From positions 1 through 36,942 of the forward strand of contig DAHVEJ010000017.1 of the NCBI GenBank assembly GCA_027313145.1: 36,942 bases of DNA, given 5' to 3'. A program made the translations under genes and the position numbers. The notes beneath the pieces were generated by a model, which saw nothing but the letters and a program-made list of their open reading frames with translations, searched no databases and was not told the DNA's origin. Below, piece by piece: positions 12,233 through 36,698 of this stretch (the first letter of the stretch is position 1; each line of letters starts with the position of its first letter). Source of the stretch: Phycisphaerales bacterium. Its GTDB lineage: Bacteria; Planctomycetota; Phycisphaerae; WQYP01.

Positions 12233-12237
12233 GGTAA

Positions 12238-13185: not shown

Positions 13186-13291
13186 GATTGAAATCTTTGA
13201 GAGTAAAAAAATAATAACATTGGGCACGCGTTTACTCTCTGCCTTCAACTCGTTATCCGCCGGCCACAACCAGCCTTTAACTTGTACTGAT

Positions 13292-14734: not shown

Positions 14735-14770
14735 CTAAGACTCCTGCTGTGTTCCGCAACCAGACCGTCA

Positions 14771-14788
14771 CTTGGACAGGCTCCTGGT
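14771..14788. repeat. CTTGGACAGGCTCCTGGT repeat copy
   Basis: These 18 bases equal the minus-strand reading of 4430-4447 exactly. The copy sits between the gltD stop and the GH140-like start. Confidence 0.6.
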
Positions 14789-14797
14789 GCCACGGCA

Positions 14798-20840: not shown

Positions 20841-20917
20841 GCCTGAGGCATACCCTCGCTTCAAACAATTCCCGCCGCCGCCCTGCGATACTTCGTCTAT
20901 ATAATCGCAAGTCCTTT

Positions 20918-20946
20918 ATTCTACTTATGACAGGCCACAGGATCAA
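20918..20946 (-). promoter_or_regulatory. Candidate sigma70 promoter of gltBD
   Basis: On the minus strand TTGATC (20941-20946) and TAGAAT (20918-20923) are 17 bases apart. The -10 matches 5 of 6 positions, and the leader to ATG 20840 is about 70 bases. Confidence 0.5.
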
Positions 20947-20990
20947 ATACTTTTCGCCCGATACAAAAATTAGGGTGCGGCAACAAATCC

Positions 20991-21002
20991 GGACAGGCTC
21001 CT
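20991..21002. repeat. GGACAGGCTCCT repeat copy
   Basis: Twelve bases shared with the copies at 4430-4447 (inverse) and 14774-14785, again between genes. Confidence 0.4.
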
Positions 21003-21121
21003 AGCTCCGGCATTTATGCCGTCGATTTCGCCGCCTGCCCGGAAATATTGCCACGCCGAAATATTAGATTCCCGTTATGTGGAAGAAATTAAAAATTTCG
21101 GATAGGATATTTGCAGATCAA

Positions 21122-21196
21122 CGGGGCGTAGCTCAGCTTGGCTAGAGCGCTTGGTTCGGGACTAAGAGGTCGCAGGTTCGAATCCTGTCGCCCCGA
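21122..21196 (+). tRNA. tRNA-Pro (anticodon CGG)
   Basis: All 75 bases fold into a standard cloverleaf. CGGGGCG pairs with CGCCCCG in the acceptor stem and A73 follows. The D stem is GCTC/GAGC, and the anticodon stem CTTGG/CTAAG closes the loop TTCGGGA with anticodon CGG. The T arm is GCAGG, TTCGAAT, CCTGT. CCA is not encoded. The first base C is typical of bacterial tRNA-Pro. Its last 14 bases belong to the 16-bp attachment repeat of the island. Confidence 0.95.
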
Positions 21197-22659
21197 TTAT
21201 CTGGCGGAACAAGCCCTTTGGTGAGAACATCAAAGGGTTTTCTCATTGAAAAATCAAGGGTTTCTTCTTTTAACGTCAAGTTCAAACAAACAATTTCCAG
21301 TAGCTGCCACTTTTCCTGGCTTTCCGCTGTAAGCCATTTATCTTTCAGGCTTTGTGAAAGTTCAAACACTTTCAACGCCAAATCCCCATGTTCATCACGG
21401 CCCCGGCCTTGGGCTTGCAACTGCAATTCCAGACTCGCCAGGCGATCCCGCAATTCTGTATCCTTGGCCGCATAGGTATCGGTGGTGATTTCTTCCATGA
21501 TCCGCAAGTTCAATAGCCGGTCCCGGAATTGCTTGGCTTGCGTGATCTGCCGCTGCAAATCCTTGGCCGTATCTTCCGTTTCACTCCGCTGCTGTTTAGA
21601 CCATGCCAGCAGGCTTTGCTGGAACCAATGCCGTAGTTCATCGGGTAAGCGGATGCGATCAAAGAGTTCCAGCACCTGCACGTCCAATGCGTGTTCCGTC
21701 AAGCGAACGCGGGGATGCCCCGGCGTGATGTATCTGGAACATCGGTAATAAACATACTCCTTGCCAGTCTTCTTTTTCGTCACCGATTCCCCGGTAATCA
21801 CCGCGCCACAGTGCCCGCAGAGAATTAAGCTGCCCGCATAGGTGAGATCATGGCCCTGGTATCGTTTGCCGCCCAGCAGAACCTGTACGCGGTCGAATGT
21901 GGCCCGATCCACCAAGGGCTTATGCTTTCCGGCATACCACTGATCTTGGTATCGCACTTCCCCGATATATGCCCGATCCCGCAGAATGGAATGAATCTTG
22001 CTGCGGGTCCACTGGGGCATGGTATCAATGTACGTGATATTCTCCGCTTCCAGTTTCTTACGCATACTGTCAATGGTATGGTTTTCATAGGCGTACATCT
22101 GAAACAGGCGTTTCACTTTCTCCGCCTGTTGGTCATCCACTTCGATCAATCCCCGCCCATCAATCCGGATATTCCGGTATCCGTAAGGCGCAGCACCGCA
22201 GAACAATCCGCTCTGCACTCTCCGGGCATGGCCCTCCCGTACATCCAACCCTTGCTGTTCTGTGGTGTAACTGGCGAACATGGCCAATTGCCGCCGCATC
22301 ATTCTCCCAGCCGGGCTATTGTCGGTGGGCTGGCTGGTGGAGATGAACGGAATGCTGTATTCCGATTCCAGCCTTTCAAGTTCAATGTAGTCATAGAGAT
22401 TCCGGGCCGCCCGATCCACTTTGTAGAACAGCAGGCCGTTTATCTCGGCGGCGTGTTCCTTGGCGTAGGTAATGAGTTCCCGGAAGGTTTTACGTTCATC
22501 CCGCCGAGTAGCCGTTTCGGCGATACGGTAAAGCTTGGTAATGCTGCCATCATGCCGCTGGGCATACGCCCGCAGGGCATCCTCCTGTACGTCCAGAGAG
22601 AACCCTTCACGTTCCTGTTCCCGACTGCTGACCCGTGCCAATGCGACATACCGTTTCAT
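21142..22659 (-). CDS. Large serine recombinase (island integrase)
   Basis: The 505-residue protein starts at ATG 22659, where the resolvase fold begins (MKRYVALARVSSREQ). Residues 1 to about 150 form the catalytic domain: Arg9 and Ser11 (nucleophile) in RVSS, and Asp82, Arg83 and Arg86 in KVDRAARN. The Recombinase domain follows (APYGYRNI; WTRSKIHSILRDRAYIGEV), then a zinc ribbon-like region (LCGHCGAVITGE; YYRCS) and a coiled-coil segment at about 370-420. Such enzymes cut and rejoin att sites for integration and excision. Oddly, the last 13 residues (IRTCDLLVPNQAL) are encoded by the antisense of the tRNA, beyond the att core, so this C-terminus was acquired on integration. The gene overlaps the upstream 103-aa ORF by 53 bases. 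Confidence 0.93.
   Translation of the reverse strand: MKRYVALARVSSREQEREGFSLDVQEDALRAYAQRHDGSITKLYRIAETATRRDERKTFRELITYAKEHAAEINGLLFYKVDRAARNLYDYIELERLESEYSIPFISTSQPTDNSPAGRMMRRQLAMFASYTTEQQGLDVREGHARRVQSGLFCGAAPYGYRNIRIDGRGLIEVDDQQAEKVKRLFQMYAYENHTIDSMRKKLEAENITYIDTMPQWTRSKIHSILRDRAYIGEVRYQDQWYAGKHKPLVDRATFDRVQVLLGGKRYQGHDLTYAGSLILCGHCGAVITGESVTKKKTGKEYVYYRCSRYITPGHPRVRLTEHALDVQVLELFDRIRLPDELRHWFQQSLLAWSKQQRSETEDTAKDLQRQITQAKQFRDRLLNLRIMEEITTDTYAAKDTELRDRLASLELQLQAQGRGRDEHGDLALKVFELSQSLKDKWLTAESQEKWQLLEIVCLNLTLKEETLDFSMRKPFDVLTKGLVPPDNRGDRIRTCDLLVPNQAL
21183..21198. repeat. Left attachment site (attL core)
   Basis: TCCTGTCGCCCCGATT, covering bases 62-75 of the tRNA plus two more. It is identical to 36173-36188, while the flanking bases differ (A against G before it, A against T after it), which defines the core. 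Confidence 0.88.
21214..21241 (+). terminator. Terminator for tRNA-Pro, inside the recombinase coding region
   Basis: CCCTTTGGTG (21214-21223) and CATCAAAGGG (21228-21237) form a 10-bp stem with one G-U type pair and an AGAA loop, followed by TTTT (21238-21241). It lies 17 bases past the tRNA and is antisense to the recombinase codons for KPFDVLTKG. Confidence 0.65.
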
Positions 22660-22918
22660 GTTTGTTGACCCCCGACAAGACCGCAAAGAGATTACCAACA
22701 TTCAATAGAATGCCAATAGCATCCTTGGCCGTCAAGGGTTCACTGTAATAGGGCTGCCAGACACGTAGCGTTTCGGCAATCAGATCGGCGGTTATCCAAG
22801 CAGGTAAACCGGCGGGCACAGCCCGCGCCGCGGTGGCGGCATCAGGATCAACCCGCCGGTCAACCGGCGCGTTGACCACACTGTCTTTGGGGAATCCATT
22901 TATGCGTTGCATGATCAT
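22607..22918 (-). CDS. Small protein translated with the recombinase
   Basis: The 103-residue frame starts at ATG 22918, just after GGTGGG (an in-frame ATG at 22912 is an alternative), and overlaps the recombinase start by 53 bases. Its core (LPAWITADLIAETLRVWQPY, then SEPLTAKDAIGILLNVGNL) reads like a compact helical domain. The open frame extends to 23383, but the upstream part lies antisense to a convincing gene and reads like non-coding sequence. I do not recognise a family. Its position suggests a recombinase accessory, for example a directionality factor or regulator, but that is inference only. Confidence 0.65.
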   Translation of the reverse strand: MIMQRINGFPKDSVVNAPVDRRVDPDAATAARAVPAGLPAWITADLIAETLRVWQPYYSEPLTAKDAIGILLNVGNLFAVLSGVNKHETVCRIGTGQQSGTGT

Positions 22919-23044
22919 CCCACCGCCAGGCGGCGCAAACATCCGTCTATTGCTCCGCGTGAAGTCAACCCGCAGGCCCACGCGAATAAGGTTGGCCGCC
23001 GGAACACACAAGCCCAGCCGAACAACCCTAACATCATACAAACA

Positions 23045-23093
23045 CAGTATGGCATTGTCATTATAAAAGTCAATGTCCTTATTAAAGTCAATT
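23045..23093 (-). promoter_or_regulatory. Direct repeats over the recombinase promoter region
   Basis: TTATAAAAGTCAATG (23061-23075) and TTATTAAAGTCAATT (23079-23093) match at 13 of 15 positions with an 18-bp period. On the minus strand each carries TTGACT. The right copy's TTGACT (23086-23091) precedes TATAAT (23060-23065) by 20 bases, and the left copy's TTGACT (23068-23073) precedes CATACT by 16. The repeats therefore overlap likely -35 and -10 boxes of the leftward operon and suit an operator. Confidence 0.45.
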
Positions 23094-23164
23094 GGCGTTG
23101 CGCAGCTATGCCGCCTGATGCACAGCTTGCCGAGGGACGGAGCGCTCTGTAGACTGTGTCTCTT

Positions 23165-23413
23165 ATGGCCAAACGAACCAAACCAGTAAAGATCACCAAG
23201 AGTGTCGGCAAACCCCTGACCGTCCAGAGAACGTACCGGTTCAATACCGAACTCTTTGAATCCTTTGAGGAAGATTGTGCCCGGCATCTGGCCAATCCCA
23301 AGCTGGTGCTGGAGGCGCTGATTCTCCACTGGCTGGAAGGTGACGCCAAGGCCCGTAGCACCATCGCCATGCGGCACCGCCAACGGTTTGGATTGTCATC
23401 CCATGACGAGTGA
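23165..23413 (+). CDS. Small basic DNA-binding-like protein (possibly ribbon-helix-helix)
   Basis: The 82-residue product starts at ATG 23165 (an in-frame GTG lies at 23156) and runs divergently from the recombinase operon. After a basic N-terminus (MAKRTKPVKITKSVG) comes LTVQRTYRFNTELFESFEED, then CARHLANPKLVLEALILHWL, a strand-helix-helix order like Arc/CopG proteins. No enzymatic motif is present. Its position beside tandem repeats over the divergent promoters fits a repressor of the recombinase operon. The fold is guessed from pattern, not from a match I can show. Confidence 0.6.
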   Translation: MAKRTKPVKITKSVGKPLTVQRTYRFNTELFESFEEDCARHLANPKLVLEALILHWLEGDAKARSTIAMRHRQRFGLSSHDE

Positions 23414-23622
23414 TTCGCCCTTCGGCATCGGCTCCTATCATTACCAAGACGCCGCGCTGCGGCAACGTTCCACCGGCATCATCAATGGTGTAAAGACCGT
23501 GCTTTGCCCTCGGCCTGCGCCGGGCAACCGTCGCGCCCTCGCTACGTTCTACTCCGCTCCGTCACGCCGGATTGCTCCGGCTCCAGCCGGTGCAAAGCAC
23601 TGGCCGAAACACCCTTCAGACC

Positions 23623-23668
23623 GCCCGCCTTGGCTTCCCGCCACCTGACGTGGAAGGCCAAGGTGGGC
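23623..23668. other. Long hairpin in the gene-poor stretch
   Basis: GCCCGCCTTGGCTTCC (23623-23638) pairs with GGAAGGCCAAGGTGGGC (23652-23668) around a 13-base loop. About 14 pairs form, with small bulges. No T-run follows, so it is not a typical terminator. Confidence 0.45.
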
Positions 23669-25270
23669 TATGTTGTGGAGACAACCGAATGGACGAGTGG
23701 GAGGGTTTTGAAAGCTCCCGCCACTGGCATTGGTGAGATGTAAACAACTGGCCGGCGCGATGTTCGGAGGCGGTTACGAATCGCCGGTGGAGGTTCTCCG
23801 GTCCCCTGACGTCCACGGTTTCCGGAGAAGTAAATGCCAGGCCGCCGAGGGACGCTTCACACCGACTGGCTCGGCTTCGTGGCTGGTTTTGCCGCGCCCC
23901 GTGACATCGACAAGTTGGCGTTCCGCACCGTTGTCCGCCGTCCCGTGTCGGCAGATGGCCACGTCACCAATAAGGATACTTGCTGTCTCCCGCGCTGGCT
24001 TTTCGCGCTGCTTGTTGCGCCAGCCAACGGCTCCCGGTGCTGCCGACTGGCCGCGCTAGCGGTATGTCAGGCAGGCTATATTATTTCCCAGATCAGACCG
24101 ACTGATCAATCGCCAGATTCTCCCGGAATGTTCGCACGCAGGGCGCTCCGTGAAACCCTAATAGCCTTTCCCGCCCGGTTCCCAACACCGTCATCTTCCG
24201 TGTCGAACCAGGCCGGAGGATGGCCCGAAGCCAACCCAATCGACTCCGCCACTGCCCCCACCGCCGGACGGTAGCGTTACCAGTGCGCAGCCCGGCCAAC
24301 GGCTTCCGCCGAAGGTTCACCGCACTGCCAACGCACCTGTTTTTCGCGTAACATCAGTGCGCTCCGCGTGCCTGCCAAAATGACAAATGGCCTCCCGAAG
24401 GGCGCATCCGGTGCAGCGCAGATTACCGCTTCCGGCACCACACATAAGCTCGGCCATGACGGGTTCACACCTTGGCCGGAGCATCGCATCAACGCTAGAA
24501 GTTCCCATCCCAGAGCGCCGTACTCGCCGCCAACTTTCGCGTTGCCATGCTCGCTTGCTCGGTTGATCGGCAAGGTCTCCAAATAATCCCAAAGCGTTGA
24601 TTTCAGATATTGAAAAGTGGAAGGCAAGAGTAAAAGACTTGGCATCCCGATTCTTGTATCTCTTTGCTTTTAAAACACTTAAGTGGCATCCCATCATTTT
24701 TTCCGGATGCCATTGGCTGCCGGACTTTTCGGCAGAACCCAGTGGAATCCAGCCAAACGCATCAGGTTCTTTGCAAGTGGTGGCGTAATGCACACTTACG
24801 AAATTCTGGGTTCTGATTCTTTTAACTTGCCTTCCAAATTTAACTCATATTCCATTGCCAAACATCCACAGACTTCAAATGCGTTTGTCATTGTTAAATT
24901 TATCTAAGTTAATGCTATCAACCGAATGCCGGAAATCAGGTCGGCGGGAGCTTGCGGGCGGCCCTCTGGGCGATCCATTGGGGACTGGGCATGACCTTCC
25001 ATATGGGGTTGTTTACACGGGTAGGGGCGGCTCGGAATAGAGTCTGAGGTGGTGGGGATGGAGTGATCAATCGGAATGACCAAGGGCATTGGCGGCGCAA
25101 CGGAAGCAATGCCCAGATGCCGGTGCAAGCCGATGGAAAACGATCGGCTACGCCAAGAATCTGAGGCAATCCAGTGGCGCAACGGACGACATGCGGACGA
25201 TGAAGATGTAGCATTATCGACCCCTCATGGAACACTCCGGAAGCTTTTTATGATTTCATTTCTATTGTGC

Positions 25271-25300
25271 TTGACACCACGGATGGCGGCGCGTTATCGT
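25271..25300 (+). promoter_or_regulatory. Candidate promoter of the RHS operon
   Basis: A perfect TTGACA (25271-25276) is followed after 18 bases by TATCGT (25295-25300). It lies about 110 bases before the first gene of the operon. The -10 box is weak. Confidence 0.35.
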
Positions 25301-25412
25301 TCCCTCGTCGCTTGCAGTTTTTGGCGACCCGCTCCAAGGCTGCAGCCGTTTCATTTTCGGTTGCCTGGTGGGGCGGAAATGGGTTTTCAACATCTTAGTG
25401 GAGCGTGCTCGT

Positions 25413-25700
25413 GTGGCGCAATTCACGATTTTTATCGCCTACATTCTCTCGGCCATGGGCCTTGCGATCTTGGTTGTCTGGCCGGAGGACGGCCCGGGGG
25501 CTTTCGTGCGGGAAAAGCTGTTCAGAAAACTGCTTCCCAAACCCGCGCACGGCGTGTTGGATTGTTACATCTGTTTCGGTTTCTGGACGGGATTGGTTCT
25601 GTCGATCCCTTGGTGGTGCATCTACCGCCAAGACTGGATATGGTGCGGCTGCTTGATGGTGCCAACTGTGTTCTGGCTGGCCACGGGCAAATCGAAATAG
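25413..25700 (+). CDS. Small CxxC membrane protein (DUF1360-like)
   Basis: Starting at GTG 25413, with GGAG 9 bases upstream, gives 95 residues beginning MAQFTIFIAYILSAMGLAIL; the frame is open farther left, but without a ribosome site. Three hydrophobic segments are visible: about 4-24, 50-70 and 75-92. The motif DCYICFGFWTGL, two cysteines at the membrane edge followed by FWTG, resembles the CPxCxxFWxG motif of DUF1360 phage and bacterial membrane proteins, whose role is unknown. It opens the operon that leads to the RHS gene; the next start is 27 bases downstream. Confidence 0.75.
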   Translation: MAQFTIFIAYILSAMGLAILVVWPEDGPGAFVREKLFRKLLPKPAHGVLDCYICFGFWTGLVLSIPWWCIYRQDWIWCGCLMVPTVFWLATGKSK

Positions 25701-25727
25701 CCGAGTTAATCACGGAGTGAAAAGGTC

Positions 25728-25997
25728 ATGGCGTGCTGCGGCGGGCGAAAACTTCTGGAACAAGGGCGGCAGTTGCAAGGTCAACCTTCACGCACTGCGG
25801 CCGGTGCGCAGCGCCCAACCGACGGTCGCCCGGCGGTTGCATCAAACAGTTCCGCAGTGCGCGAGCTTCTCCGCAAAGCGCCGCAGCGTCCAAGCCAAAC
25901 GCCGGGGACCCGGCAGCGGGCCGCACCGTCGGCAGAACCGCCGCGATTCGCCCAGTCGCCCGCTGAACCGGTGTTTGGGCGTCGGGGCGCTCCCTGA
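25728..25997 (+). CDS. Small Pro/Arg-rich CCGG protein
   Basis: The 89-residue product begins MACCGGRKLLEQGRQLQG and continues with a Pro, Arg, Ala and Gln-rich disordered sequence. AGG precedes the ATG by 2 bases and a GAG lies farther upstream. Codon-position use is GC-biased as in its neighbours, and the short gaps on both sides fit the operon. No family recognised. The adjacent cysteines recall the CC pairs near the start of the RHS protein, hinting at metal or disulphide chemistry; this is speculative. Confidence 0.6.
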   Translation: MACCGGRKLLEQGRQLQGQPSRTAAGAQRPTDGRPAVASNSSAVRELLRKAPQRPSQTPGTRQRAAPSAEPPRFAQSPAEPVFGRRGAP

Positions 25998-26091
25998 CGC
26001 GGGTGGATGGCTCCAATAAACGGGGAGGGGCGGAATTGCTCGGGTACTGCAATGGTTGGTCAGAACGTCTTATTAGTGCGGAGCGGGTTCA

Positions 26092-27138
26092 ATGGGAAAC
26101 ACTCAGAACTGCCAGTTTATCGGGGCCACGCTGTGCCCCGGCTGCAGCGGGACATCGCCGCTCTGGATCAACAGGGCATTGCTGGCTGGCCGCAGCTTAG
26201 GCGGTGGCGGCTCGTTTACCTACGACGGGGCGTGCTACTCGATTCCCGCCAATGCGCAGCCACAAAAGCCCAGCGGCGGTGGTTACGCCAGCGCTGGTTA
26301 CATAGGCGAGACATCGCCCGGTTGCGCCAACTGCTGTGCCGTCAAACCGGAGTCGGTTTTTTTCGATTGCAGCGGCACGGGCACTGCGACCGTTAATGTC
26401 TCCGGCCCGCCAGATTCGACCGTCTATCTTTCATGGAGCAGTTGTTATCTGGTGGTTAATGGCGTTGGACCAAACATCGCCGGGGGCAGCACAAGTATCA
26501 CGCTGGGCAGCAGCGGTGGCACCTTTACGGTGGGGACATCCAGCAGCGTGTGTCCGATTCCCTGCCCCGGCGGCCCGGCTGGCGTCAACGTAGGGACGAG
26601 CCCGGGCGGAGACCAATGCGGCAGCGTTGCAATCTATACGGGCTGTATGCCCTGCCCTGAGACTCCCACGACCCTGACAGCCAAAATCACGTTGCCGGTC
26701 TCCACGCTGGATTCTGGTGGGTACGGCTGCCATACCATCAACCAGGCCAGCGGCTCTTATACACTTCAACCGGCAAGTTCAGGCCCCGGTGCCGCCAGTT
26801 GCGGATGGGCCAAGAGTTGGGCACCCACGTATAACCTGCCGTTGGTTTTGGAAATACAGTGTGTCAGCGGAAGCGCATCGTACCCCGGTACTGAGGCAGG
26901 CCAACTGTATTGGCAATTTTCGATCGGTGGAAGCAGCCCGCCCGCAATATGTTATTGCTCCAATGGCCAGACACCGCCGAGTAAGATGCAAACCTTGCAG
27001 CTCTACACTGGTTACTTAAAGTACGAAGGTCCTGTACCGTTGGGTACCTGCACCCTATTAGACGTCCCGTTCGGCTACGACCCTGCGTACCCGCCGTGCC
27101 CCGGCCCCGGACCAGCCACGGTTGCAGTGAGTAATTAG
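26092..27138 (+). CDS. Cys-rich beta-type protein of unknown function
   Basis: The 348-residue product starts at ATG 26092, 8 bases after GGAG. It is rich in Cys, Gly, Ser, Thr and Pro (TLCPGCSGTSPLW, CANCCAVKPESVFFDCSG, CMPCPETP), with alternating hydrophobic residues suggesting beta structure and many possible metal or disulphide sites. There is no signal peptide or transmembrane segment. No family recognised. It lies between the CCGG protein and a glycosyltransferase-like gene, with 27 bases to the next start. A structural or tail-like surface component, or a partner of the RHS protein, is possible from context only. Confidence 0.75.
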   Translation: MGNTQNCQFIGATLCPGCSGTSPLWINRALLAGRSLGGGGSFTYDGACYSIPANAQPQKPSGGGYASAGYIGETSPGCANCCAVKPESVFFDCSGTGTATVNVSGPPDSTVYLSWSSCYLVVNGVGPNIAGGSTSITLGSSGGTFTVGTSSSVCPIPCPGGPAGVNVGTSPGGDQCGSVAIYTGCMPCPETPTTLTAKITLPVSTLDSGGYGCHTINQASGSYTLQPASSGPGAASCGWAKSWAPTYNLPLVLEIQCVSGSASYPGTEAGQLYWQFSIGGSSPPAICYCSNGQTPPSKMQTLQLYTGYLKYEGPVPLGTCTLLDVPFGYDPAYPPCPGPGPATVAVSN

Positions 27139-27165
27139 GCGGCTGGGGCCGCTGATAGGAAACCT

Positions 27166-28254
27166 ATGAGAAATCTTCCCGGCCATCACGTTTATTCGCT
27201 TCGCCCGGCCCACGCGCGAGGGCGGGGCGGTTCGGTGCCGCTGGATCCGGTGGTGGCCTGCACACTGGCGCTTGGCGCGTTGCATTGGCGAAAACACAGC
27301 GGCCCGATGCGGTTATATGCTGACTCTGAATTCGCGGCGTTTATCGACGGCCTCGGCCTGAGTTGGATTTATGACGCCGGGATTGATACGGCGGTGCTCG
27401 ATGCCATGCCGGATTGCATCCGCTACGACACATTTTGGGTTGCACCGAAGGTCTTTGCTTATCGCGCAGCAGCTTTGCCGGCGGCATTTCTGGATGTTGA
27501 TCTGGTGGTTTGGAAGCCGGTTGTCAACTGGGCTGAGTTCGATGTGACTTTTCTACATCGTGAGTTCACTGAACGCGGGGACGGAACGGGCTATGCGGTT
27601 CCCTCAGGTTATAACCGTCCCGCGTACCCGTGGGATGGTGAGGAATTCAACTTGGGATTCCTCATTCTCAATAACGAGGAGATCGGGGAAGAGTCCACAA
27701 CCCAGGCCATCCGCTTCATGTCCGACAATCCCGGAAGCGACCCATTCAACCACGCCTGCTTTGCAGAGCAGTATTTATTGGCCCAGTGCTCCAAGGCCCG
27801 CGGTGCCAGGGTGAGGGCATTGCTGCCGGGGCCGCCGCACGATGAAAGCGTTGCCACGCACCTCTGGGGTGATAAACAAAAGCTCCGGGAAGAGCCGGTT
27901 CGCGCGTGGGCGTTGGTGAATCGCTATATCGAACGGCTCAAACAGGATTTTCCGGAGCATGTTTCCGGGATGAACCGCCTGTTTGCGTGGGCGTCCTCCG
28001 TTGCGGAAACGGCGGCACGCCAGGCGCAGAACAATCGCCGCAACGCTCCGGAATTGCTGCGCCGCACGGTTCGGCCGGTTCCGGCGGCGGTTACACCCCC
28101 GGTACACACTGCCGAGAGATTAAGACGCCCGGCGATCAAGCGGCCTGATGCGGCGGCAGAGCCGAGGGTCGCCGGGCGCTTCGCGATACAATCCCCATTG
28201 AGAAAGTCGAGGCCCTTGGGCACGCGCCAGAACCGTGCGGCGGCATTAACCTGA
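27166..28254 (+). CDS. Glycosyltransferase-like protein (resembles DUF6734)
   Basis: The 362-residue product starts 5 bases after AGGA. Residues about 25-270 look like a GT-A nucleotide-sugar transferase fold. PMRLYADSEFAAFIDGLGL is followed by FWVAPKVFAYRAAALPAAFL, the DxD-type FLDVDLVVW (Asp110, Asp112) and EFNLGFLILNN. This order recalls DUF6734, whose substrates are unknown. The C-terminal 90 residues are Arg/Pro/Ala-rich and probably disordered. Its place in the operon, 27 bases before the RHS gene, suggests that it glycosylates the RHS protein or a neighbour, which is inference. Confidence 0.68.
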   Translation: MRNLPGHHVYSLRPAHARGRGGSVPLDPVVACTLALGALHWRKHSGPMRLYADSEFAAFIDGLGLSWIYDAGIDTAVLDAMPDCIRYDTFWVAPKVFAYRAAALPAAFLDVDLVVWKPVVNWAEFDVTFLHREFTERGDGTGYAVPSGYNRPAYPWDGEEFNLGFLILNNEEIGEESTTQAIRFMSDNPGSDPFNHACFAEQYLLAQCSKARGARVRALLPGPPHDESVATHLWGDKQKLREEPVRAWALVNRYIERLKQDFPEHVSGMNRLFAWASSVAETAARQAQNNRRNAPELLRRTVRPVPAAVTPPVHTAERLRRPAIKRPDAAAEPRVAGRFAIQSPLRKSRPLGTRQNRAAALT

Positions 28255-28281
28255 AATACTATGACGAGGAGTAATTGAACC

Positions 28282-31200
28282 ATGGCTGCAAATTTGAATA
28301 ACTGCCAGACCATCCCGCCGGGGCCGGGCCCCAATCCTAATCCTAATCCAAATCCCCATCACCACCATCACCACCACCACCACCACCATCATCACCATCA
28401 CCCCCATCCTAAGCCTAGCCCGTGTACCGGCAGTTGCTGCGGATCGAGCAGCGCAGTGAGTTCTTTTCCGCTTGGCACGACAAGCACCAGCCAAAGCAAC
28501 TCGGTCATGCTGGCCACCGGCGAGTTTATCTTCTCACTGGATTTGCTTTCCGCGCCGGCCATTGGCGGAGGCTCGTGGCAGCTTTCCCTGCAATACCTCT
28601 CCAATAACGGCGTTGACGACATTGTGGGCCTTTACTGGAACTACAGCCAGAATTACCAACTCATCCAGCTTCCCAACGGCGATATTGTGTTGATGACCCC
28701 TGATAATCTTCAGGAAACCTTTATCTATAACGGCAATGGCCAGTGGCTTTCGGGATACAACAGCACGCAGGCCACGCTGGTGGAAATCAATGCCGGAACT
28801 GCCAATGACACATTTATACTTACCAGCAACGCCGGCACGGTGACGGAATTCTTTGGCTTTTATTCTTCGATCACCACGCCGGGCCGGATGAAAAGTACCA
28901 CCGATCGGTACGGCAACAGCCAGACGCTTACCTGGACCGCCACGGGCGGGGTCGTGCAACTGGTTTCCGTCACCGACGCCTATGGCCGAACAATCACCTA
29001 TTCCTATTACAACGCCACCTACGGCTACAAATGTAGCGGCATCGCCGACTTTCTGGGAAGACAGATCAACTTCCAATATGATTCCGCCGGACATCTGGTG
29101 GCGGTGGTATTACCCAGCATCAATAACGCCGCACCGGGCAATACTTTCCCCGACGGCACAGCCTACGTGTTCCAATATGATGTCAACAACACGGACGCCA
29201 ACCGCCAGAACGATCTGGTCGGCGTCTGGTACCCTAATCAGACGCAACCTTACGTAAGCAATCGAGCGGTGGATGTCGCCACAGTCTATGCCAACGCCAC
29301 GCCGCGATATGTTATCACCTACGGCCAAAGCTCCGGCCCAACCATCGCCTACGGCGCGGTAGTCTCCGAAACCGTCGGCGACCCCGCCAATGGCGTTGGA
29401 GGTACTTATACCTTCAGCTACAGCAATACCGGCCTTCCCGCCAACATCATCGACCCCACCGATCCGATTGTCAGCCAGACCACCATGACCGACCGCAACG
29501 GTAACATCAAAATATTTAACTTCAACTACAACGGCATGGTCGTCATGAAACAGGAAAACACCAATCGCAACAAATCCAGCCTGGAAGTAGGCCCATATAT
29601 CACTTGGACGCAATACAACGACCAGAACCAGAAATTACTGGAAGTATTGCCCGCCGGGAATTCCATCGCTTACTCATACGATACCGGCCTGATCGACTTC
29701 GGCTCCGGGCCGCAATTATATCCACCCAGAAGGGGATTACTGCTCTCCGAAACCCAGTACCCCGGCAACAGCATCGGTGTACCCAGTCGCCCCGGCTCCA
29801 ATGGCCAAACGCAATTAACCAAAACGTACTTTTACGACCCGATATACAACCAGGTATGCGCGGAAATTAACGAAAAGGGCAATCCCATTGCCGTCAGCAG
29901 CGGCGTAAATGTTTACTTCACACCGCAGAACGGCGGCACCACGCCCACCGATGCCAATCGCAGTCGTTACGCCACGATCACTTATTATGACTATCAGAAA
30001 AATCAGACCACCACCATCACCGGCTCCAGCGCCCTGCAAAACCTGCTGGGGCTTACCGCCGCGCAGATACAAAGCCTGATTGCGTATGCCGGCAACCAGA
30101 TGATCGCCGGTGGATTACCCAACGGTTTCCAGACCAATCTGGGCAATATCAACGGCGATGGTACCGGTGACGGTAATTCCTCCGGCCTTTCTCCCGCCGC
30201 CATGCTCGGCAGCGTGGTGAAGGTCCAACAACCTTCAGTTTACCAGCTCGTACCCTCCACCGGCTCCACGCCGTGGGTCTGGCAGACCCAACTGATAATG
30301 GAACTTTACACCAACAACTATGCCGGGCAAACCACCACGTATACCGACCCGGAAGGCAATTTAACTGTGTACGTCCGTTACCCGGAAAATGATCCCGAGG
30401 GCAATGGCGAATATGCCGCAACGTTCCTGTCCAACCGGCAGTATGGCCGATTGCGGGAAGTACACGTTGATGCCAATCCAGATCAGGTTATGGATCTCGT
30501 TGGGGAAGATGGCGATTTAACAGCTTTCACCGGTAATATCATCTCCCGCACCAACACTCCCGCCCAATATCTTGATCTGGTAACCCGTTATGAAGGAGGC
30601 ACCGGCTCCGCCGGCTGCCCCACTTGCGCCTACGACCCGCTGGGCAATCCATTGGCATCCACCGATCCCAACGGCAATACGACCAGCTACCTGCGCACGG
30701 AAATGGGCGAGCCATACCTGCGTACCGGCCCGGCCCCCTATCTCTTCCAGAGCCAAAGCTACTACGATTCCAATCGCAACACCGTTCGTGTGGATACGCA
30801 GGACCAACAGGTGGCTTACGAATCCCTTGATCCCAACGATCCGGATTTTGCCCAGTTTATTCCTTCCGGCAACGGTTCATCCACCGCCAATATTCCCATG
30901 CAAAACGGCCCCGGCGGAACCGTCCGCCCCGGCTGGTTCACCAATTTATACACCTTTGACATTCTTGATGACAGAATTCAAGATGACATCGACGCCACCG
31001 GCTCCAACCCCGCCAGCTTGGTAACCAGCTACAGCTTTGATCCCAACCAAAACACCGTTCAAATAACCAAACCCAACGGCAACATCGTGCAATACGATTA
31101 TGATGAACGCAATATTCGCATAGCCCAGAGAATCGGCTATGTCGCCGGTTCCGATCCCGGCTCGGTTACGGTAAGTGTTTTTGACGCCAATGGTAATCTG

Positions 31201-34200
31201 CTGGATATCATTGGCCCAGCGCAAAGGGGCACCAGTAATAACAGCCTCAGCGTCACCATCTCCAATGCCTTTAACTCCGGCAGTTCTTTGATCCAAACGG
31301 GCGATTGGCTACTGGCCAACACCTTAGATGGCTTTGACCGTGTGATTACCGCCACCGACGCCATCGGCGATCTGACCAACAATACCTTCGATCCCACCGG
31401 ACAGAATATTCAAAGGCAGATTCTCGGCAGCCCCAACGGCCCGACGCCCACCAATCGCAACGGCAACACCAATGTGCCCCTGGAGCTTGTGCAAACCCGC
31501 TACGATGAAGCCGGGCGGCCTTATGAAAACCAACAGAATGTCTTTCTCAATACCGGTCTTTCCGGCGGTACACCGACCAACAATATCCCTTCAGGCAGAA
31601 CCGCCACTCACACCGGTGGTGGTTTGGCGGCCAATTCCACCACCAACACCAACACGGGCACGGTAACACTGACCACCGGCGGCCAGAGTTATACGCTTTC
31701 CCGCACCGTCTTTGACCGTTCCAGCCGGAACACCGGCAGTGGTATGGATAATGGGACCGTTACCACCACCGCCTATGACGGTGCCAATCGCCCGATTCTG
31801 ACCACCGATGATCTGGGCAACACCACGGCCACAGCGTTTGATAACAATGGCAATCCAGTCAGTGTCACGCGAACCGAATTATCCACGATTACCCAACCCG
31901 TCCAGACGTCGGAAGTGTTTATTACGCTGATGGCATGGGACTGCATGAATCGGCAGGTGCTTATCGCCCAACCGGGCTCGGATGGATCCATTGCCAGCCA
32001 GAAGGGTGTGAATCTCGCCCGCATTACACTCACCGGCTATGACAGCCGGGGCAATGTAACATTAAACATTGATCCCAACGGCAATACCATCGTTACACTC
32101 TGGGATGGAGCCAATAGAAAACTCGAAACCCGGCAGCATCTGCGCCAGAACGGCCTGGGCAGCAATCCCCCCGTCAACAACGGCAATGGCCAGAGCACTA
32201 CCTTTAACACTTCTGGCCAGGGCCAGATCGCCGGGAGCATTCAGACGAGCTTTGAATATGATGGCAATTCCAACCAGACCGCCATGGTGGATGATCGCGG
32301 CGGCGTGACGCGCTGGGCCTTTGACCCGCACGAACGCAAAATCTCGCAGACTTTTCACGACGGCTCGACCGAAATTTTCGTTTATGACTTAGCCAGTGAT
32401 GTGGTGCAATATACTGATTGCAATGGCTCGAAGTTTACCAATACTTGGGACCCCATGGGCCGGAAAGTAAGTACAACCATCGCACCCGCACCAGGCATCG
32501 GCGGTACCACCGCCCAAAGCTTCCAGTACAACGGCTTGGCTCAGACCACGTTTGCCCGTGATACCGCCAACGGCAACAATGCCGATGTCACGCTGGTATA
32601 TGATTCCATCCAGAGAACGGTCGAGGAGGCACAGACCTACGGCGGCAATACCCGGTATGTTACCAACAACGCCTTTACATCGTTGCCGGTAAGCCAATTC
32701 ACATTCCCCAATGCCCGGCAGATCAACAGCAGCTTTGACGCCCTGTATCGCCGCCAGCAGATTGTCGAAGCGGCAACCAGTGCGGTCATCGCTAGTTGGC
32801 AATACTTTGGTCCCGGCAGAGTGGCGGAAGTCACCTTGGGCAATGGCGTCATTCAAACCATGCTCAACAACGCCAGGACCCACAGTGCGGTGCAGTTCGG
32901 CACGGTTCCGAATCCACCTTGGGGTACGCCCTCCACTGACCGGCTGGGCTATGACGGCTCAGGCCGCATGATCGCCAAACGCTATCTTGCTGGCGGCATC
33001 AATTCCACCACATTTGCGTACAACAACACCGCACCCGTGGTGGGCAACACCACCGCCTTTGATCCGGCGGATAACAAATTCTATGAACGGGCGTTGCACG
33101 CGGAGAATCGGAGTTTTTTATACCAACCGGTGGATAACAATGGTAATATCGCCTCACCAACCCCTGGTTATGATTCCATCAATCGATTGCTGCAATATCA
33201 GAGAGGAACATTAAGCAGCACTGGCGGTTATCAGAATGCTGGCGGCGGAAGCGTAGCGGCTCCCATTACCTTGCCGGACTCGGCTGCGCTGCGAACCTAC
33301 GATCTGGACGGTCTGGGGAACTGGAAGCTCAGTGGTGCGGAACTGATTAGCTCCCACCTGACCTTCGATCAGCGGAATCACAATAAGCTCAATGAGATCA
33401 CTCAACGGACCGTGGGAACCAGCCCAGTGGCCAGCCCTCGGTACGACTGCCAAGTCGGTGCGTCCAATGGCAATCTGGCCGACGACGGCACCACATTGAC
33501 CTATGCGTACGACTCGCTCAACCGCCCAATTTCCATCGGATTCGTCGGTGCCGGGCCTCGCCCGCCGCAACAACTCGGTTCCTATGTCCTGGACGCCTTT
33601 AACCGCAGGATTCGCAAGACGATTTCCAACGGGGGGTTGTCTTCGGCAGTTCCCAATGGCACGACGGATTACGCCTACATGGGCAATCAGGTGGTGGAGG
33701 AACGCAATCCCCTCGGCGGGTCAGGCTCAACCGATACGCCGATCCGGCAATATATTTGGGGAACCTATATTGATGAGTGCATCCAGCTGACGACGCTTGC
33801 AACATTGGGCGGCGGGAACCTTGCGCCTGGGACCTACTACCTTCTGCAGGACCTCCTGTACCGTGCCGTGGCGCTGACGAATTCAACCGGCGCTATCGCT
33901 GAAGCTTATGACTGTGACGCCTACGGAAATACGATTATCTTCACAGCCCCGTACCAAGGGAATTGGTGGTCGGACAACGACACGCAATCATACTACGGTG
34001 CGAATGAAGTCATTTTCTGCGGCTACAGATTCGATCCGGAAACGGAATTGTATTACGTCCGCAACCGCACCTACAACCCCACCCTTGGCCGCTGGCTGCA
34101 ACGCGACCAGATCGGCTACGCCGGCGGCGTGAATTTGTACGAATATGTCGGTGGAAATCCGACGGTGAGCCTCGACCCCGAAGGCGAATGCCCGGCCGGC

Positions 34201-34770
34201 TATCGGGAATTCTCGGCGGCGGGGATCGCGGCTTGGGAGGCGGCCCACGGTGCCAAGGCGATAAGAGAGTGGATTGATCCATCGCTCAGGGCACAATATC
34301 CCGCCTCAGCGTTAAACACTGACCCATTTCTGCAGGGGCTTCCGATTCCGCCAATGTGCCAACCGAACTGCAAACAAGTAGGATATTGCGTGAGCATTGG
34401 TTCTCCCGAGGCTGTCGGGAAACGGCATATCATCTCCCACGGAAAGTGGCACTATCTTCATACAACTTACAAAATAATAAAAGTTGGTCAAAGTGTGACG
34501 GAGGTACCATCGCAAAACATATGTCAGCGCGCGGTGAAATATTGGAGCCATGTTCAGCGCCGTGGCGATTTTCTGATCGAATACACCTGTACGGGCTATG
34601 GCATCAGTAACTCAGGCGGACTTCAGTCTGGTGTTCCCTATACCGTGGATGTGTATTACGGATCGGTCGACTGGCTAACGAGCGGAAAAAGCGGGGGTAC
34701 CTACGAACAGAGGAAGGCGTTTGACATTAACCCGCTCCTCGGCGGCGGAGGAGGAGGTGCCTGTGGATGA
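28282..34770 (+). CDS. RHS/YD-repeat protein with poly-His N-terminus and variable C-terminus
   Basis: The 2162-residue protein starts 10 bases after GAGGAG. Residues 17-25 are a Pro-Asn repeat and residues 26-40 are fifteen His, followed by CTGSCCGSSS (Cys48, 52, 53). The body carries many YD repeats (YDEAGRPYEN, YDGANRPILT, YDSLNRPIS), which build the RHS beta-cocoon. The hyperconserved core end is at 1914-1969 (GYRFDPETELYYVRNRTYNP through GRWLQRDQIG to DPEGE). The last 193 residues are unlike the core, as in polymorphic toxins, but I recognise no toxin family. There is no signal peptide. The next gene overlaps its stop by 8 bases, as immunity genes often do. It could instead be a non-toxic surface or wall-associated RHS protein. 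Confidence 0.93.
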   Translation: MAANLNNCQTIPPGPGPNPNPNPNPHHHHHHHHHHHHHHHPHPKPSPCTGSCCGSSSAVSSFPLGTTSTSQSNSVMLATGEFIFSLDLLSAPAIGGGSWQLSLQYLSNNGVDDIVGLYWNYSQNYQLIQLPNGDIVLMTPDNLQETFIYNGNGQWLSGYNSTQATLVEINAGTANDTFILTSNAGTVTEFFGFYSSITTPGRMKSTTDRYGNSQTLTWTATGGVVQLVSVTDAYGRTITYSYYNATYGYKCSGIADFLGRQINFQYDSAGHLVAVVLPSINNAAPGNTFPDGTAYVFQYDVNNTDANRQNDLVGVWYPNQTQPYVSNRAVDVATVYANATPRYVITYGQSSGPTIAYGAVVSETVGDPANGVGGTYTFSYSNTGLPANIIDPTDPIVSQTTMTDRNGNIKIFNFNYNGMVVMKQENTNRNKSSLEVGPYITWTQYNDQNQKLLEVLPAGNSIAYSYDTGLIDFGSGPQLYPPRRGLLLSETQYPGNSIGVPSRPGSNGQTQLTKTYFYDPIYNQVCAEINEKGNPIAVSSGVNVYFTPQNGGTTPTDANRSRYATITYYDYQKNQTTTITGSSALQNLLGLTAAQIQSLIAYAGNQMIAGGLPNGFQTNLGNINGDGTGDGNSSGLSPAAMLGSVVKVQQPSVYQLVPSTGSTPWVWQTQLIMELYTNNYAGQTTTYTDPEGNLTVYVRYPENDPEGNGEYAATFLSNRQYGRLREVHVDANPDQVMDLVGEDGDLTAFTGNIISRTNTPAQYLDLVTRYEGGTGSAGCPTCAYDPLGNPLASTDPNGNTTSYLRTEMGEPYLRTGPAPYLFQSQSYYDSNRNTVRVDTQDQQVAYESLDPNDPDFAQFIPSGNGSSTANIPMQNGPGGTVRPGWFTNLYTFDILDDRIQDDIDATGSNPASLVTSYSFDPNQNTVQITKPNGNIVQYDYDERNIRIAQRIGYVAGSDPGSVTVSVFDANGNLLDIIGPAQRGTSNNSLSVTISNAFNSGSSLIQTGDWLLANTLDGFDRVITATDAIGDLTNNTFDPTGQNIQRQILGSPNGPTPTNRNGNTNVPLELVQTRYDEAGRPYENQQNVFLNTGLSGGTPTNNIPSGRTATHTGGGLAANSTTNTNTGTVTLTTGGQSYTLSRTVFDRSSRNTGSGMDNGTVTTTAYDGANRPILTTDDLGNTTATAFDNNGNPVSVTRTELSTITQPVQTSEVFITLMAWDCMNRQVLIAQPGSDGSIASQKGVNLARITLTGYDSRGNVTLNIDPNGNTIVTLWDGANRKLETRQHLRQNGLGSNPPVNNGNGQSTTFNTSGQGQIAGSIQTSFEYDGNSNQTAMVDDRGGVTRWAFDPHERKISQTFHDGSTEIFVYDLASDVVQYTDCNGSKFTNTWDPMGRKVSTTIAPAPGIGGTTAQSFQYNGLAQTTFARDTANGNNADVTLVYDSIQRTVEEAQTYGGNTRYVTNNAFTSLPVSQFTFPNARQINSSFDALYRRQQIVEAATSAVIASWQYFGPGRVAEVTLGNGVIQTMLNNARTHSAVQFGTVPNPPWGTPSTDRLGYDGSGRMIAKRYLAGGINSTTFAYNNTAPVVGNTTAFDPADNKFYERALHAENRSFLYQPVDNNGNIASPTPGYDSINRLLQYQRGTLSSTGGYQNAGGGSVAAPITLPDSAALRTYDLDGLGNWKLSGAELISSHLTFDQRNHNKLNEITQRTVGTSPVASPRYDCQVGASNGNLADDGTTLTYAYDSLNRPISIGFVGAGPRPPQQLGSYVLDAFNRRIRKTISNGGLSSAVPNGTTDYAYMGNQVVEERNPLGGSGSTDTPIRQYIWGTYIDECIQLTTLATLGGGNLAPGTYYLLQDLLYRAVALTNSTGAIAEAYDCDAYGNTIIFTAPYQGNWWSDNDTQSYYGANEVIFCGYRFDPETELYYVRNRTYNPTLGRWLQRDQIGYAGGVNLYEYVGGNPTVSLDPEGECPAGYREFSAAGIAAWEAAHGAKAIREWIDPSLRAQYPASALNTDPFLQGLPIPPMCQPNCKQVGYCVSIGSPEAVGKRHIISHGKWHYLHTTYKIIKVGQSVTEVPSQNICQRAVKYWSHVQRRGDFLIEYTCTGYGISNSGGLQSGVPYTVDVYYGSVDWLTSGKSGGTYEQRKAFDINPLLGGGGGGACG
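34747..34758 (+). promoter_or_regulatory. Shine-Dalgarno run that favours GTG 34763
   Basis: GGAGGAGGAGGT, inside the last codons of the RHS gene (its Gly run), ends 4 bases before GTG 34763. Confidence 0.65.
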
Positions 34771-35605
34771 GGGTACGCGATCCGCTGGAGCAGTAGCGAC
34801 CGGCTTGGCGGCTTGGCTTCCCCGCCAACCGCGAAAAGGATTAGGGGCCGGCGCAATTTTCTGCGCCACTGCAGCCCTATTCGTGGCGGATGCGCTGAGC
34901 CTATGGGTGATACATTCCAGTCCAAACCAACTGCTAGCTAGCCCACGTTTCTGGATAACATGGTGGGTGGCAGTATTTCCCGCGCTCGCACTTCTTAATT
35001 CGGTGGGACTCTGCGCAGGGGTATGTCTCTGGGTTGCACCAGAGGCCGCTAATCTGAGTTTCTGTGGGCGCGCGGGGCCTGTGCTCAGTCGCACGGCACC
35101 AGCCGCCACCTTGTTCGCGGCGGCCGACGCGGCGCTCACGGGACTCCGCGTGTTTTTCCCGCCGGTGGCTCTCGGCGGCGGCCCGTTACCGCTATGGGGG
35201 ACAGTATCCTTCAGGGTACTCGGATGGATTAGCGCCCTTCTCGGTGTACCGTTCGCCTGGTGGCTTTGGCGTACCATACACGCGGTGGTTCACGTTCGCC
35301 TGCCCGGTTGGCAGCAGGCAGCAGCTGCGCTCTCATGGCTGTGGCCTGCGCTACTCGCTGGCTGGCTTGTGGTCGGGGTCCTCCAAGCTTTTCCCATGCC
35401 TCCCGCAGGGGCTGACTTAAGCTCACCAGCGATCCTGTTCCTCCGGGTATCGGCCGACGTATCAGCCCTGCTTCAAGTTACGGCCGTGGTGATTGATGTA
35501 GCCTCTCTGGCACTATTGCTGGCGCTTCAAGCACCTTATTGGGCTAGCTGGTGCGGACGCGAAAAGGGGGCATCCACCCGTTCCACTAGACGGGCGCGGG
35601 AATAG
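34763..35605 (+). CDS. Multi-pass membrane protein, candidate RHS partner or immunity protein
   Basis: GTG 34763, close behind a GGAGGAGGAGGT run, gives 280 residues and overlaps the RHS stop by 8 bases; the frame opens from TTG 34721. About six hydrophobic helices are visible, including AIFCATAALFVADALSLWVI, FWITWWVAVFPALALLNSVG, WPALLAGWLVVGVLQAF and VASLALLLALQAP. The C-terminus is basic (REKGASTRSTRRARE), probably cytoplasmic. No family recognised. Overlap with the RHS gene suggests coupled translation and a partner role. Immunity against the RHS C-terminal domain, or membrane anchoring or export of the RHS protein, both fit. Confidence 0.72.
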   Translation: MDEGTRSAGAVATGLAAWLPRQPRKGLGAGAIFCATAALFVADALSLWVIHSSPNQLLASPRFWITWWVAVFPALALLNSVGLCAGVCLWVAPEAANLSFCGRAGPVLSRTAPAATLFAAADAALTGLRVFFPPVALGGGPLPLWGTVSFRVLGWISALLGVPFAWWLWRTIHAVVHVRLPGWQQAAAALSWLWPALLAGWLVVGVLQAFPMPPAGADLSSPAILFLRVSADVSALLQVTAVVIDVASLALLLALQAPYWASWCGREKGASTRSTRRARE

Positions 35606-36172
35606 GCCACGGTGAATCGCCCCTCGAAATGTTGACGAGCATATTTTGCTTGGCACCGCGTATAGCGGCCCAGCGAATTGTGTAAGGAGCTAATATCCAT
35701 GATAAGGGATGATTTGCTGGTTGTATAATGGCTGGATGATATGGAATTATGGCAATAGGTAGAACAATTTCGGCGTCTTACGCCCGCTCTCGGTCGAGAA
35801 ATTCCCGCCCTGCGCGCGGTCGGGGCGCGGATGGGGGATTTCCATCTTTTCGCCCTGCATTTTGCCGCCACTGCTCAAGCCGCTTTGCGGACCTGGACAT
35901 CAACGAGCGGCAATCGCGGATCGCCGCGATAGTTTCTGCGTGCGATTTCGATTTGAATGGTTGGCCCGTCACGGGTTCGGTAGGCCACCGGTTTCAACAG
36001 CGCTTTGCCACAGTGGGCTTCTTCGGGCGTTCTGATTCCCAAGGCGCTGTGCGGGCGGCAGGATGAGCACTTTCCCGAGGAAAGAATCAGGGATTATGTT
36101 TATCCTCGTACACAAGTGACCCAAAGACGTTCGTTTCTGCCGAAACGCCACCGGCAAAAAGTTCTATTGGTG
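35606..36172. other. Right end of the island with decayed sequence
   Basis: No intact gene is convincing. The interval holds a transposase tail on the minus strand and, next to the att core, an in-frame extension of the recombinase. A short minus-strand frame from ATG 35700 (MDISSLHNSLGRYTRC) lacks a ribosome site and overlaps the membrane-protein gene, so it is not called. Confidence 0.55.
35875..36064 (-). pseudogene. Transposase C-terminal remnant (integrase-core, IS3/IS481-like)
   Basis: The minus-strand frame from about 36062 to a TGA at 35875 reads CRPHSALGIRTPEEAHCGKA and ends LPLVDVQVRKAA. RPHSALGxRTPEE is the standard end of rve-type transposases. The catalytic part is absent, and the homology begins about 25 bases from the recombinase-tail stop, so this is a truncated insertion-sequence remnant. 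Confidence 0.7.
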
Positions 36173-36188
36173 TCCTGTCGCCCCGATT
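36087..36188 (-). other. Alternative recombinase C-terminal segment at the right att site
   Basis: On the minus strand the att core reads AAT CGG GGC GAC AGG A, in the same codon frame as at the left end. It continues TPIELFAGGVSAETNVFG and onward to a TGA at 36087, 28 residues past the arginine. In the excised circle this would replace the 13 tRNA-derived residues of the recombinase. Confidence 0.65.
36173..36188. repeat. Right attachment site (attR core)
   Basis: TCCTGTCGCCCCGATT, identical to 21183-21198 at the tRNA-Pro 3' end. Sequence to its right should be the original downstream flank of the tRNA. Confidence 0.88.
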
Positions 36189-36206
36189 TTGGCCGGAGGC
36201 CAAAAT
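36186..36206. terminator. Perfect 9-bp hairpin after attR, possible original tRNA terminator
   Basis: ATTTTGGCC (36186-36194) and GGCCAAAAT (36198-36206) form a perfect stem with a GGA loop directly after the att core. Before integration it would have followed the tRNA immediately. No clear T-run follows, so its terminator role is uncertain. Confidence 0.4.
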
Positions 36207-36335: not shown

Positions 36336-36698
36336 ATGGCCTTCGCTTTTGAAAAACTCATCGTCTACCAGAAAGCCATTTCCTACGGCGACTGCATTTG
36401 CGCCATCACCGAAAACTTCCCAGGTGGTTACGGTTTCCTTTCCGACCAACTCAACCAGACGTCCGTTTCCATTGCCGCCAATATTGCGGAAGGCAATGGA
36501 CGATTCACCATTCCGGACCGGAGAAATTTTTTCATGATCGCCAGGGGATCCGTGCAGGAATGTGTAGCACTATTGGAAATTGGGTTTCGCCGAAAGCTCA
36601 TTGCGTTGGATATTCATCGTCAGCGTCGCAGCGGTCTGGAAGAAATTTCCAAAATGCTCTCCGGCCTGATCAACGGCTTGGGAAACCGGAAGGCATAA
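36336..36698 (+). CDS. Four-helix-bundle protein (S23/intervening-sequence family)
   Basis: The 120-residue product starts 5 bases after CCGGAG. It shows the family pattern: FEKLIVYQKAISYGDCI at the start, then LSDQLNQTSVSIAANIAEG, RRNFFMIARGSVQECVALLE and a final amphipathic helix. These small helical proteins, first seen in 23S rRNA intervening sequences, occur widely in planctomycetes and relatives; their function is unknown. The usual QxRRAxxSI stretch is altered here to QLNQTSVSI. It lies outside the island. Confidence 0.88.
   Translation: MAFAFEKLIVYQKAISYGDCICAITENFPGGYGFLSDQLNQTSVSIAANIAEGNGRFTIPDRRNFFMIARGSVQECVALLEIGFRRKLIALDIHRQRRSGLEEISKMLSGLINGLGNRKA

Follow-up and report, generated by a model that had tools for sequence, protein, structure and literature searches.

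The closest described counterpart of the locus analysed here is the integration system of the Myxococcus phage Mx8, whose attP site lies in the 3' part of int (PMC4701971, PMC6070905). Integration of Mx8 is described as replacing a C-terminus of 112 residues by one of 13 residues and as lowering the activity of the integrase (PMC4701971). The C-terminus of the serine integrase of streptococcal rumA ICEs also changes on integration, a change that the same source mentions without functional data, and it counts very few self-altering integrases as described (PMC4701971). The rumA ICEs differ from the element described below in that their target is a protein gene and their hosts are other bacteria, and the passage on them reports no conserved swapped tail (PMC4701971).

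The stretch of DNA analysed here, hereafter the window, comprises 36,942 nucleotides from a Phycisphaerales bacterium and carries an integrated element with its own recombinase gene. As in Mx8, the integrase gene contains attP in its 3' part, and integration replaces the C-terminus of the protein; Mx8, however, is a single phage with a tyrosine recombinase and 112 replaced residues, whereas the family of the window consists of large serine recombinases with a short tail that is replaced by antisense tRNA. Judging from the sequences compared, the arrangement is known in kind from Mx8 and the rumA ICEs, and its new aspects would be its spread over a whole phylum and a tail that appears conserved at the protein level. 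In the open-access literature we found no description of this recombinase family, which does not by itself prove that there is none.

In the serine integrases of phiC31, Bxb1, A118/LI and SPbeta, which share their domain order and fold with the recombinase family of the window, the direction of recombination is set by a separate RDF protein, and to our knowledge no change of their C-terminus on integration has been described. Serine recombinases that target tRNA genes, such as those of Mycobacterium AICEs in tRNA-Leu and of phage phiRSM1 in tRNA-Ser, are described as rare (PMC3218068), and serine integration into tRNA genes has elsewhere been stated to be unknown (PMC4383910). These cases resemble the window in that a serine recombinase acts on a tRNA gene, but the target in the window is tRNA-Pro, and the attP of phiRSM1 lies between genes rather than within the recombinase gene (PMC3816273).

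The integrated element and its empty site

A direct repeat and an empty-site comparison delimit an integrated element of 14,990 bp between two 16-bp cores, of which the window holds exactly two copies (Table 1). The attL core extends from the last T of the T-loop to 2 nt beyond the 3' end of the tRNA. In two sister species (G411:C88 and G412:C127), the homologous site is empty, and the gltB neighbour, tRNA-Pro(CGG), the core, a hairpin (slightly different in G412:C127) and the S23 gene follow each other without interruption, so that the element of the window is a precise insertion of 14,990 bp. With an intact tRNA gene at one end, a displaced fragment of its 3' part in direct orientation at the other and close relatives in which the site is uninterrupted, the element has the make-up of a tRNA-targeting genomic island. 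A symmetry search for att half-sites around a central crossover dinucleotide gave best centres of only z ~2.5, several of them equally good and one within the core.

Table 1. Coordinates of the element, its att sites and its flanks in the window
Feature	Position	Strand	Basis or remark
tRNA-Pro (CGG), integration target, T-loop TTCGAAT	21122..21196	+	ARAGORN; homologous site empty in G411 and G412
Large serine recombinase gene	21142..22659	-	Pfam domains; final 13 codons plus stop come from antisense tRNA
Integrated element	21183..36172	.	Direct repeat and empty-site comparison
attL core TCCTGTCGCCCCGATT	21183..21198	+	Exact second copy at 36173-36188
Predicted recombinase 3' end in the joined circle, TPIELFAGGVSAETNVFGSLVYEDKHNP	36087..36172	-	Stop 36087-36089; only TPIELF conserved in own family
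Conserved attP right arm AAAAAGTTCTATTGGTG, adjoining the core	36156..36172	+	Encodes TPIELF on the minus strand
attR core, copy of the displaced tRNA 3' end	36173..36188	+	Preceded by the right arm in homologous elements
Hairpin TTTTGGCCGGAGGCCAAAA, terminator-like, original tRNA 3' flank	36187..36205	+	Near-identical hairpin directly 3' of tRNA-Pro at the G411 empty site
23S_rRNA_IVP (S23) gene, chromosomal right flank	36336..36698	+	Pfam; in G411 and G412 the empty site is followed by the same gene start

Several further observations concern the element and its surroundings. Positions 35860-36060 share 81% identity with a different contig of the genome and resemble the end of an integrase-type transposase; a right end consisting only of an IS remnant was rejected, as the conserved arm and tail at 36087-36172 lie outside this match. 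Just upstream of the tRNA gene (20998-21058), a repeat of ~60 bp occurs in dozens of copies across genomes of the genus. The cargo of the element includes a 2162-aa RHS-repeat protein (28282-34770) with a run of ~15 histidines near its start. Other contigs of the same genome hold four more right-end sites, L150 (C53), L151 (C184), L152 (C197) and L153 (C273), and the one at the end of C197 precedes its own inverted copy, which lies at the contig end.

Two ends of one recombinase gene

The recombinase reading frame runs on the minus strand from 22701 or 22659 to 21142 and reads through the att core, as the initial annotation had noticed. Its product of ~500 aa combines the Resolvase (PF00239), Recombinase (PF07508) and Zn_ribbon_recom (PF13408) domains of Pfam, all above cut-off, and is in this respect a large serine recombinase (integrase). 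In the integrated form, the protein ends RGDR-IRTCDLLVPNQAL (full end NRGDRIRTCDLLVPNQAL, then a stop inside the antisense tRNA), while joining of 21183 to 36172 in a circle would give RGDR-TPIELFAGGVSAETNVFGSLVYEDKHNP (full end NRGDRTPIELFAGGVSAETNVFGSLVYEDKHNP, then a stop), in frame; both predicted C-termini agree with those first proposed. The codon phase is indeed kept at both joins, which is trivial because the core is shared. The non-trivial part is that homologues keep to one frame on both sides of the core; an att core inside the integrase frame with state-dependent 3' ends, as in Mx8, is found family-wide. Compared with the integrated copies of G411, G413 and G416, the body of the recombinase has a pN/pS of ~0.09, which indicates strong purifying selection on the integrated gene.

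Homologues were searched for in 392 genomes of the phylum and were found in 49, the genome of the window included. Among 40 loci taken around them, 32 have a called tRNA where the recombinase gene ends (29 Pro, 2 Met and 1 Glu), and in all of these except the tRNA-Glu case (31/32) the recombinase frame passes into the antisense tRNA in one and the same phase, with no earlier stop. The TGA from the T-loop then serves as the stop in 25 homologues, directly after RGDRI or its equivalent, and 6 read on. On the opposite strand, a T-loop TTCAAAT becomes ATT TGA and a T-loop TTCGAAT becomes ATT CGA, so that nucleotide 57 of the tRNA decides where the integrated gene stops; the tRNA of the window has G57, and its recombinase reads through 13 codons of antisense tRNA. 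The idea that this 13-residue tail is a functional domain was rejected, given that most homologues stop after RGDRI and that the others vary with the tRNA: IRTCDLLVPNQAL is antisense tRNA that bears no sign of protein constraint.

Three of these loci (L042, L043 and L047, in G381, G307 and G283) carry, immediately upstream of the recombinase gene beside the tRNA, another complete or partial gene for a serine recombinase. Recombinases of the family at L044, L049 and L069 and at L061 and L073 carry two other C-terminal tails, with CRIFEPWTPARDAFATAFF and FExIPLxFLxWFL, respectively, which perhaps belong to other att classes.

The joined-form tail across the phylum

Homologous elements have AAAAAGTTCTATTGGTG in common at their right ends, adjoining the core. 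A DNA model of arm and core had matches in 66/392 genomes at E values up to 0.1, those close to this limit including chance hits and mere tRNA ends. With a protein model of the tail, 31 of the 392 genomes had a match. Read in the recombinase frame, these right ends encode RGDR-TP[ILV]ELF-xxG[VI]RxW[ED]xxLRR followed by a stop, with examples such as GEDRTPIELFIAGVRGWEADWRRVLTAPEEEN and RGDRTPLELFLAGVRGWEAATLQQFADNL, each before its stop codon.

Codon-phase tests were applied to these sites. Over TPIELF, the three codon positions have entropies of 0.53/0.10/1.05 (55 nonredundant sites). Of 52 nonredundant DNA-model sites, only 4 contain a stop within codons 0-18 of the recombinase frame, while the remaining two forward frames are interrupted at 35 and 33 sites. 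For TPIELF as well as for codons 8-20, which the DNA model does not cover, none of 300 column shuffles reached the in-frame BLOSUM score; outside this model the score was -0.23 versus -0.88 for the shuffles (sd 0.105). The seeds of the DNA and protein models are aligned sites of the same kind, meaning that the columns inside the models are not independent evidence, while codons 8-20 are. By these tests, the joined-form tail is conserved at the protein level, beyond the DNA half-site. Part of the conservation of TPIELF must nevertheless reflect DNA binding, because it lies within the expected span of a serine-integrase half-site. Many right-end sites stand in contexts without an adjacent recombinase, and the tails there are therefore not translated as part of one.

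Some of the sites form arrays. At L148+L149 (G384:C8, ~11,959-23,700), five right-end sites in the same orientation lie between ordinary genes, with no recombinase; these genes include an apparent his operon (recognised by eye, 7.7 kb), and the stretch may be a cassette array or the product of serial integrations. The best match to the window recombinase in G384 is partial (E 3e-19), not a close homologue. At L233 (G377:C82 15168-21308), four tail sites lie within ~6 kb, one of them still preceded by the remnant of a recombinase C-terminus. An integron-like cassette system was considered and set aside, since serial integration followed by decay explains the arrays in G384 and G377 equally well.

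Recombinase and tail are also found as one natural gene. GTDB contigs scanned for a degenerate combination of the KPFD motif of the recombinase, the core and TPxEL contained 29 matching stretches, almost all from Planctomycetota; several of the stretches are chance matches or decayed. Two encode uninterrupted recombinase + tail proteins, L281 of 512 aa and L260 of 525 aa, the latter ending RKPFDVIAEGLLSENSRGDKTAIELFMAGIRGWEAALRRLLGQKPVHPRP and 59% identical to the window enzyme. L260 (JAGVLO010000009.1) lies on a contig of a MAG labelled Alphaproteobacteria and encodes a planctomycete-type recombinase, pointing to transfer or mis-binning. For the L260 tail, AlphaFold predicted two short helices (pLDDT ~60-77) in a model whose mean pLDDT of 67 and pTM of 0.36 are too low to place the tail relative to the rest of the protein; the best PDB matches of this model are serine integrase complexes. 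Viral contigs contained no match to the recombinase-core-tail pattern and no confirmed relative of the recombinase, the tail-only pattern matching one of them (L251) without an adjacent recombinase. Phage and plasmid records held no close recombinase relatives, with ~26-28% identity at best among the matches listed.

The question raised at the outset, whether either tail is conserved in homologues, thus has a divided answer. For the joined-form tail, a lack of conservation does not hold, because TPxELF is conserved phylum-wide, at dozens of sites and with a coding signature, and because natural fusions of recombinase and tail exist; the integrated tail shows no sign of constraint as protein.

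In the window's own lineage, the evidence is confined to a shorter segment. Among 28 same-family sites, TPIELF is present in 21 and the RxW motif in none, and the codons read ACA CCA ATA GAA in 19. In the window, as in many other members of its family, TPIELF is conserved and the other 22 residues of the tail are not; since these first six residues alone are conserved, the tail of this element may be partly degenerate. A match to the window tail was found at only one same-family site, in G411 (L290), where 6/28 residues differ (7 nonsynonymous and 4 synonymous changes), weak evidence either way. One group among these sites (G395, G404, G406, G413 and G416) shares an extension of its own, TPIELFxxAVNGLGGRFMQLFARSCSIRTTA, with a pN/pS of 0.46 in frame versus 0.92 and 1.33 in the shifted frames, the in-frame value being only moderately low.

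Possible consequences of losing the tail

According to the reading that we find somewhat more probable than its opposite, this element targets tRNA-Pro with an attP that shares sequence with the 3' end of the element's own recombinase gene, and loss of the tail alters the enzyme. Once the element is excised or joined in tandem, the gene would continue across the core into the right end and yield a full-length enzyme with a conserved and probably helical C-terminal extension of ~20-30 residues. Judged from the sequences, an element that integrates within the 3' portion of the tRNA gene loses this conserved extension from its recombinase, after which the gene would end at the antisense T-loop TGA (A57) or, as in the window, read 13 antisense-tRNA codons (G57). 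We infer that the tail-bearing form would be the integration-proficient enzyme and that loss of the tail may lower or alter its activity and thereby stabilise the integrated state, as measured for the Mx8 integrase. The expected change in activity is drawn by analogy from Mx8 and from what is generally known of serine integrase C-termini.

Tail loss might instead set the direction of recombination, the tail keeping the enzyme in an integration mode and the tail-less form carrying out attL x attR excision with less or no need of a directionality factor. The two forms would be made in exactly the states that need opposite reactions. In serine integrases, attachment of a directionality factor to the C-terminus (integrase-RDF fusions) can flip direction, and in the only structure then known the C-terminus is close to the coiled coil to which control of direction is ascribed (PMC5737554), so such a switch is possible, if unproven. 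The known fusion effect is nevertheless the opposite one, the added domain promoting excision, and Mx8 is a case of reduced activity, not of reversal; we consider a direction switch unlikely. The same doubt applies to a broader proposal, that of a self-contained, planctomycete-wide switch in which the tailed enzyme would integrate and the short form stopped in the T-loop would excise or shuffle tRNA-Pro-anchored cassettes without any directionality factor.

It is likewise improbable that the conserved right arm is nothing but an attP half-site, with the reading frame across it accidental and the enzyme unaffected. The strongest conservation does extend ~17 bp past the core, as would be expected from the length of a serine-integrase half-site, and in the window's family these codons are near-invariant in DNA while the remainder is mostly not conserved. 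Against this stand the triplet periodicity, the scarcity of stops in the recombinase frame alone, the conserved residues beyond the half-site and outside the DNA model, and the existence of full-length recombinase + tail genes. Pure DNA binding as the cause of the tail's conservation is thus weakened by the codon-phase tests, although it may apply to the window's own family.

Least probable, in our estimate, is that the tail is an ancestral C-terminal domain kept for the integrity of the joined-form gene, its loss on integration being a tolerated by-product with no regulatory role. The variation of integrated ends with the tRNA would fit this, as would the non-essential 21-residue end that follows the last beta strand of phiC31 integrase (PMC5737554), but the tail is conserved across divergent recombinases (30-60% identical), which speaks for a role in the joined form, so that removing it should have consequences.

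Returning to the reading in which tail loss alters the enzyme, the element would represent a self-editing integrase arrangement of a rarely described kind that is possibly regulatory. The tail that integration would remove is conserved and spread over the phylum, and the stop of the integrated gene usually comes from the host tRNA. The family may thereby offer many natural pairs of enzyme forms with which C-terminal control of integrase activity or direction could be tested, a question that is also relevant to genome engineering with serine integrases.
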